From Candidatus Aenigmatarchaeota archaeon (GTDB lineage: Archaea; Aenigmatarchaeota; Aenigmatarchaeia; CG10238-14; SCSR01): a stretch of DNA of 64,000 nucleotides. How positions within the stretch are numbered: position 1 is the first letter of the stretch; the number at the start of each line of letters is the position of its first letter. This document shows positions 8,822 to 35,998 of the stretch, in pieces. The stretch spans positions 273,492-337,491 of the forward strand of contig JAUWZS010000001.1 in assembly GCA_030615205.1 (NCBI GenBank), read 5' to 3'. Below the pieces are notes generated by a model that saw only the letters and a program-made list of their open reading frames with translations, had not been told where the DNA came from and did not search any database. Made by a program: the position numbers and the translations under genes.

Positions 8822-8907
8822 GCCCTCGTAGTTCAACTTGGATAGAACGATGGCTTGCGGACTTTGGTGAAAAGCCATTAATCTGGGTTCAAATCCCGGC
8901 GAGGGCA
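8822..8907 (+). tRNA. tRNA-Arg (anticodon GCG) with a 12-nt intron
   Basis: Acceptor GCCCTCG/CGAGGGC, D-stem GTTC/GAAC, anticodon stem ATGGC/GCCAT and T-arm CTGGG-TTCAAAT-CCCGG are all perfect apart from one T-G pair. The anticodon loop is 19 nt instead of 7. Removing 8861-8872 (ACTTTGGTGAAA) restores loop TTGCGGA with anticodon GCG at 8857-8859 and the intron at the canonical 37/38 position. The junctions form a relaxed bulge-helix-bulge: bulges GGA and AAA around a four-pair central helix TTGC/GTGA (two wobbles). A Cys reading (GCA) would need a different splice, and discriminator A73 argues against it. Confidence 0.85.
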
Positions 8908-8911
8908 CATC

Positions 8912-19824: not shown

Positions 19825-19939
19825 CCCGTTGTAGCTCAATGGCAGAGCAACCGGCTGTAGACGAGCGCGTCGGCGCTTGTTGGTAGCTCTTGCTCAGACA
19901 GAAACCGGTAGGTTGGGAGTTCGACTCTCCCCAACGGGA
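19825..19939 (+). tRNA. tRNA-Tyr (anticodon GTA) with a 43-nt intron
   Basis: Acceptor CCCGTTG/CAACGGG (C1-G72 as in archaeal tRNA-Tyr), D-stem GCTC/GAGC, anticodon stem ACCGG/CCGGT, T-arm GGGAG-TTCGACT-CTCCC, discriminator A. The intron is 19861-19903; splicing gives loop CTGTAGA with anticodon GTA at 19857-19859. The bulge-helix-bulge is textbook: bulges AGA and AAA around a perfect central helix CTGT/ACAG. The intron carries its own hairpin AGCGC/GCGCT. Confidence 0.95.
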
Positions 19940-35372: not shown

Positions 35373-35499
35373 TGGGCTCGGTGGGATTTGAACCCACGAC
35401 CGCTGGTTTCTACACCAGTGAAACTAAATGCTCAGTGGCCTTATAAGACCTGCACCAGAGCTCTCTGACAGTGCTCTAACCAAACTGAGCTACGAGCCC
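35373..35499 (-). tRNA. tRNA-Ile (anticodon TAT) with two introns
   Basis: Minus strand: acceptor GGGCTCG/CGAGCCC, discriminator A, D-stem GCTC/GAGC, T-arm GTGGG-TTCAAAT-CCCAC, variable loop CGGTC. The region between D-arm and variable loop is 52 nt too long. Removing 35450-35468 (19 nt, in the anticodon stem between positions 29 and 30) and 35408-35440 (33 nt, at the end of the anticodon loop) leaves CTGGT-CTTATAA-ACCAG: a perfect stem and loop with anticodon TAT (35443-35445). Intron 1 has a perfect bulge-helix-bulge: GCAC/GTGC helix, bulges TGT and AGG, hairpin CAGAG/CTCTG. Intron 2 has a relaxed one: TTAT/GTAG with bulges AAG and AAA and helix GCCA/TGGT. Confidence 0.85.
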
Positions 35500-35533: not shown

Positions 35534-35998
35534 TTATTTATCCTTTAAAAACTTTTCAAGATTGCTATTGTTGCGCTTTTGCAAAAATGCATGCGCAGCT
35601 TTCAATATTTCCTTTGTGTTTTCATATGTAAGCGTTTTCATCGCAGCTTCGTATTCTAGCCACATGTACTCGAGATGCTCGTCTGATATCTTTACTTTTT
35701 CTTCAGTTGTCTCAGCAAGAAAATAAACGGCTTCTTTGTAGATGTTTTCTTCTTTCAATCTATAGAACCAATGTGTAGTTTCACAGAATCCTTCGATAAA
35801 TTCTATTTTCAACCCAGTCTCTTCTTTTATTTCGCGTTCTGCTGTTTGCTTTTCTGTTTCTTCCTTTTCGGTCTTACCTCGTGGAAAATCCCAATAATCT
35901 CCTTTGAAATGGTAGTGCAGCACCAGATAAAATATTTTTTCTCCTTTTTCACCACCACGACGGAAAATTACAGCACCAGCACTTTTTTCTTTTGGCAT
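35534..35998 (-). CDS. Nudix hydrolase, probable bis(5'-nucleosyl)-tetraphosphatase type
   Basis: 154 residues. Nudix box GKTEKEETEKQTAEREIKEE followed by TGL (about 41-63) matches G-x5-E-x7-R-E-x-x-E-E-x-G. The N-terminal SAGAVIFRRG and the DYWDFPRGKTE lead-in are like archaeal/eukaryotic Ap4A hydrolases. It would hydrolyse a nucleoside diphosphate linked to another group; the exact substrate is unknown. The C-terminal helix (TKEILKAAHAFLQKR) is typical. It runs toward the tRNA-Ile gene, 35 bases away, and is divergent from the XRE regulator. Confidence 0.9.
   Translation of the reverse strand: MPKEKSAGAVIFRRGGEKGEKIFYLVLHYHFKGDYWDFPRGKTEKEETEKQTAEREIKEETGLKIEFIEGFCETTHWFYRLKEENIYKEAVYFLAETTEEKVKISDEHLEYMWLEYEAAMKTLTYENTKEILKAAHAFLQKRNNSNLEKFLKDK

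Follow-up and report, generated by a model that had tools for sequence, protein, structure and literature searches.

The window, that is, the whole 64,000-nt stretch of DNA analysed here, carries on its minus strand a gene for a tRNA-Ile(UAU) interrupted by two introns, one within the anticodon stem and one in the anticodon loop. The host genome, a MAG assigned to the Aenigmatarchaeota (DPANN), spans 1.17 Mb in 36 contigs and is 88.5% complete. Most archaea read AUA with the help of the enzyme TiaS, via agmatidine on tRNA-Ile2(CAU). We consider it very probable that in this organism the gene encodes a functional tRNA of the Ile3 type, most likely the only AUA reader, and that the TiaS route has been replaced; this judgement leaves aside the idea of anticodon modification taken up below. 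The features are as follows.

35373..35499, minus strand: tRNA-Ile(UAU) gene including the discriminator A73 (Rfam RF00005, 51 bits; sequence and cloverleaf)
35469..35499, minus strand: exon 1, positions 1-29 (sequence; cut set by the bulge-helix-bulge motif)
35484..35490, minus strand: 5′ strand of the D-arm, GCUCAGU (positions 10-16), predicted partner of an intron segment (MFE fold)
35450..35468, minus strand: 19-nt intron 1, interrupting the anticodon stem at 29/30 (strict bulge-helix-bulge GCAC/GTGC; missing from the syntenic homologue L051)
35441..35449, minus strand: exon 2, positions 30-38, GU CUUAUAA (sequence; 38/39 register)
35443..35445, minus strand: anticodon UAU, positions 34-36 (sequence)
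35408..35440, minus strand: intron 2, 33 nt, at 38/39 (37/38 is equivalent, with an identical mature product; central helix TTAT/GTAG)
35430..35436, minus strand: intron segment ACUGAGC, complementary to the D-arm GCUCAGU (MFE fold; pairing probability 1.00)
35373..35407, minus strand: exon 3, positions 39-73 (sequence; T-arm and acceptor fully paired)
35534..35998, minus strand: gene for a NUDIX hydrolase, immediately upstream of the tRNA gene (Pfam PF00293)

The first-pass annotation of this DNA had proposed the two-intron structure, and it holds. When TCAGAGAGCTCTGGTGCAG (19 nt) and GGCCACTGAGCATTTAGTTTCACTGGTGTAGAA (33 nt) are removed from the 127-nt precursor (75 + 19 + 33), which runs from G1 at 35499 to A73 at 35373, the 75-nt product GGGCTCGTAGCTCAGTTTGGTTAGAGCACTGGTCTTATAAACCAGCGGTCGTGGGTTCAAATCCCACCGAGCCCA folds into a full cloverleaf, with complete pairing in the acceptor (7/7), D, anticodon (5/5) and T (5/5) stems and a loop CUUAUAA, in which the anticodon UAU is accompanied by U33 and A37. 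Rfam model RF00005 matches 35373-35499 with 51 bits (E 5.4e-8). ARAGORN missed the gene in the window, and the genome-wide search with RF00005 missed it as well, so that the genome tally obtained with this model understates the number of intron-bearing tRNAs.

Most likely, the archaeal splicing endonuclease cleaves the precursor at two bulge-helix-bulge motifs, and ligation of the exons would then give a tRNA whose UAU anticodon is encoded in the genome and which would read AUA as isoleucine in place of TiaS/agmatidine and tRNA-Ile2(CAU). We infer splicing, isoleucine charging and AUA decoding from the sequence, the putative charging from the anticodon and A73 only. In seven genes of the window, AUA is the commonest isoleucine codon (115 of 227), and therefore it must be read well.

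The bulge-helix-bulge of intron 1, also claimed in the first-pass annotation, is borne out: the motif at 29/30 has a central helix GCAC/GTGC paired 4/4, two 3-nt bulges, each cut two nucleotides in, an inner helix of 5 bp and an outer helix of 3 bp. When both cuts are moved by 1-3 nt the motif is lost, and among 200,000 shuffled introns only 46 gave one as good. Placement at 26/27 was rejected, as the stem is then mismatched (CAGGT/ACCAG) and the splicing motif is absent. Position 29/30 is a listed non-canonical intron site of archaeal tRNAs, and a non-canonical intron may accompany a canonical one, as here; Crenarchaeota and Nanoarchaeota are named as rich sources of such introns (PMC4090602), whereas the present host belongs to a different phylum, for which the literature searched gave no report of non-canonical tRNA introns. 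Inspection by eye shows further 29/30 introns of this geometry, in which positions 24-27 pair with the intron, in L093 and L099/L100.

The motif of intron 2 is less regular. With the cut at 37/38 there is no good motif, the central helix being paired 2/4. With the cut at 38/39 the central helix TTAT/GTAG is paired 4/4, while the outer helix is interrupted by C32 opposite C40, so that even at the best register the motif is a relaxed one.

The nearest named relative, L051, is also an Aenigmatarchaeota sequence, with an EF-2 73% identical to that of the window. At L051:13750-13897, about 3.6 kb downstream of EF-2 and in the same place as in the window, lies a syntenic tRNA-Ile(UAU), and by eye the flank upstream of it holds a gene end resembling the NUDIX hydrolase. 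Its anticodon-loop intron starts similarly (AGGCCGCTGAGC vs AGGCCACTGAGC), whereas its second intron lies elsewhere, near 48/49, and its anticodon stem is an uninterrupted CTGGT in place of the CTG[19 nt]GT of the window gene. Since this homologue lacks exactly intron 1, that intron is most simply read as a later, lineage-specific insertion.

A strict pattern for UAU with an anticodon-loop intron was found in at least 32 of 156 Aenigmatarchaeota genomes, from 24 genera and 12 families, and its reversed control gave 0 in every genome. Because the pattern fixes the D-arm and distances, as well as the anticodon, this count is a lower bound. Matches were present in only 12 of the 39 near-complete relatives; in the others, the gene probably carries D-arm variants or further introns. 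We parsed 31 copies, all related by descent: 30 from the strict-pattern search, among which the window is counted, and the L051 copy. All 31 have the anticodon-loop intron at the site of intron 2 and none is intronless, in what is a lower-bound sample of non-independent lineages. In 30 of the 31, a complete 4-bp central helix lies over U33-A35, in one of two registers, and hence covers U34. Pairs 28-42 and 29-41 of the anticodon stem change on both sides across the homologues. A pattern search of the 156 genomes for an intronless UAU gene gave four CTTATAA matches; all were rejected as tRNAs, with anticodon stems paired at most 3/5. The same kind of pattern for an intronless tRNA-Ile(GAU) gave matches in 73 of the 156 genomes, where most of the listed matches are tRNA-like and a minority look like chance.

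The extra introns of tRNA-Ile(UAU) vary by family. In families f28 and f30 (L101, L104, L105, L106, L109 and L110) a second intron appears to follow TTCAAA or TTCGAA in the T-loop; in family f2 (L085, L089-L092) an apparent D-arm intron near 22/23 accompanies that of the anticodon loop.

The first-pass annotation had also suggested that the gene could signal the loss of TiaS, and this claim is supported. TiaS was sought with a single domain model, TiaS_FLD (PF08489), which gave no match in the host genome even at E<=10. The loss is, however, not specific to this genome. PF08489 was found above the cut-off in none of 156 Aenigmatarchaeota genomes, including none of the 39 near-complete ones, so that the loss is at least phylum-wide; it reaches further still, as 0 of 371 genomes in the phylum of a Woesearchaeota record had a match. 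The four archaeal controls were positive each time. Two sub-threshold matches in the Aenigmatarchaeota are chance matches: L075, which runs antisense across RNA-polymerase-like genes, and L076, antisense to a phosphoglycerate-mutase-like gene (names by eye). A weak match in the phylum of the Woesearchaeota record, L116, is antisense to another gene and spurious, and the weak candidate L117 contains four internal stops. The replacement of the TiaS route would then be old, at least phylum-wide. In the literature searched, no paper links DPANN with TiaS.

The first-pass annotation had suggested looking for tiaS and a CAU tRNA-Ile2 elsewhere in the genome; neither was found, and elongator tRNA-Met was likewise not located. 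Contigs C26 and C29 of the host are archaeal, while contigs C2, C11, C13, C19, C22 and C28 bear bacterial-type tRNA genes, several with an encoded CCA; these are small contigs, and the MAG is thus partly contaminated. Two patterns combining a CAU anticodon with a T-arm found only the initiator tRNA-Met on the archaeal contigs; a broad T-arm pattern lacked the specificity needed. Since the CAU patterns did not locate elongator tRNA-Met in the host genome, the CAU inventory is incomplete, and this tRNA is either absent from the assembled contigs or interrupted by an unusual intron. An AGCTCAG-type CAU gene pattern gave a single tRNA-like match phylum-wide, in a 1.9 Mb genome. It is likely, if not proven, that tRNA-Ile2(CAU) is absent from this 88.5%-complete MAG.

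An archaeal UAU tRNA without tRNA-Ile2(CAU) is already known from two species, Nanoarchaeum equitans and Korarchaeum cryptofilum, whose tRNA-Ile3(UAU) is likewise genomically encoded and for which tRNA-Ile2(CAU) is unreported; the Korarchaeum gene has one intron and resembles that organism's own tRNA-Ile(GAU) (PMC8450103, PMC6000648). The present gene differs in having two introns, at 29/30 and in the anticodon loop, and in belonging to another phylum, in which it is spread over 12 families. Compared with the TiaS/agmatidine system, the codon served is the same, but the anticodon is UAU rather than CAU and TiaS is undetected. The phylum-wide spread, the presence of two introns, the constancy of the anticodon-loop intron and the alternative fold common to these precursors (see below) appear to be undescribed in the literature searched, outside which many subscription papers lie. 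The question of how TiaS-less archaea read AUA without misreading AUG has so far rested on two organisms; the UAU route now appears across much of a DPANN phylum, which bears on when DPANN lost, or never acquired, TiaS.

Could the gene be a decaying or silent copy, with AUA read by an undetected tRNA-Ile2(CAU) that receives an agmatidine-like modification from an enzyme too divergent for PF08489? The MAG is incomplete, and the failure to locate elongator tRNA-Met indicates that CAU genes can escape the searches. Yet all stems of the tRNA are intact, the gene is conserved in 12 families with its anticodon unchanged (the anticodon being part of the search pattern), TiaS was found in 0 of 156 and 0 of 371 genomes of the two phyla searched, and the phylum-wide CAU pattern has a single tRNA-like match, in a 1.9 Mb genome; we regard a silent copy as very improbable. 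A functional tRNA-Ile(UAU) that reads AUA is the reading we prefer, and with it arises the matter of why the anticodon-loop intron is always there. According to PMC7694415, citing Mandal 2014, a UAU mutant of a haloarchaeal tRNA-Ile also bound AUG, so that one would expect some safeguard. The tRNA-Ile(UAU) of yeast has its U34 and U36 converted to pseudouridine only as long as it retains the intron, and these intron-dependent pseudouridines of eukaryotic tRNA-Ile(UAU) are made by Pus1 (PMC4090602). The archaeal gene shares with the eukaryotic one the anticodon, an anticodon-loop intron always present among the genes found, and the problem of discriminating against AUG; it differs in its splicing motifs, which are archaeal. 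By analogy, one may speculate that the anticodon is modified in an intron-dependent manner here as well, for example at U34, which would keep AUG from being read and would be a plausible reason for the constancy of the intron. That constancy may instead reflect shared ancestry rather than constraint. On such an account, which is compatible with a functional AUA reader and concerns only the constant presence of the intron, the anticodon-loop intron would be a role-less bulge-helix-bulge intron, inherited from the ancestor and retained through inertia in a phylum rich in introns, and U34 would be either unmodified or modified without any need for the intron. By eye, about half of the host tRNA genes bear introns, and the homologues have a common origin; against this, tRNA-Ile(GAU) is intronless in 73 of 156 genomes and tRNA-Ile(UAU) in none, and the other introns of the UAU gene have been gained and lost repeatedly. 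We take a role-less intron to be a serious possibility that falls a little short of probable, and simple inheritance and an intron-dependent step to be about as likely as each other. Because the UAU gene was never found without its anticodon-loop intron, intron-dependent modification is testable on many natural sequences.

A more specific proposal starts from the predicted fold of the precursor. In all 31 parsed copies the intron begins N-G-R-C, able to pair with exon positions 30-32, and a 29-i5 pairing is available in 20 of the 31 (permutation 12/10000, relatedness uncontrolled). CUGAGC or a G-U variant, complementary to the D-arm GCUCAG, stands at intron positions 7-12 in copies from families f1, f2, f5, f9 and f15. 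Over 21 precursors, the predicted probability that the D-arm pairs with the intron has a mean of 0.62, as against 0.09 with shuffled introns; it is 1.00 for the window precursor and 0.00-0.36 in 16 other intron-bearing host tRNAs. These figures would suit a real regulatory conformation, in which the intron pairs with the D-arm and the 5′ strand of the anticodon stem and so holds back splicing or makes the anticodon accessible to an enzyme that modifies it. The statistics, however, do not control for the shared ancestry of the homologues, part of the start of the intron is also used in the splicing motif, as inner helix, covariation cannot show in a D-arm fixed by the search pattern, and none of the copies tested from families f6, f11 and f28 is predicted to adopt the fold. 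With relatedness uncontrolled and the D-arm fixed, the alternative fold is a lead and not a result, and a regulatory role for it seems doubtful. It may also be proposed, though it is likewise unlikely, that in DPANN, or at least in this phylum, the intron is obligatory, a precursor-specific structure of intron, D-arm and anticodon-stem 5′ strand being needed for modification of U34 before splicing. If so, this archaeal route would correspond to the intron-dependent one of eukaryotes, whether as its ancestral form or through convergence.

Several other tRNA genes of the host deserve mention. On the plus strand of the window, ARAGORN calls a tRNA-Ala(TGC) at 8822-8908, which becomes a tRNA-Arg(GCG) with stem ATGGC/GCCAT if an anticodon-loop intron is allowed, and a tRNA-Asn at 19851-19939, where the Rfam span 19825-19939 corresponds to a tRNA-Tyr(GTA) with an intron. 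Positions 101-184 of L037 (G000:C29:72292-72375) hold a tRNA-Ser-like gene with a long variable arm and G73, whose loop TTGCAGG gives GCA, a Cys anticodon; an ordinary tRNA-Cys(GCA) with U73 is present as L005, and no tRNA-Ser(TGA) was found in the host genome. The tRNA-Lys(CTT)-like gene L048 (G000:C26:135919-135992 and beyond) is broken after GGGTTCGAA, possibly by a T-loop intron rather than through decay to a pseudogene. Finally, L049, on the minus strand of G000:C29 near 120856-120940, is a tRNA-Phe(GAA) with an apparent D-arm intron.
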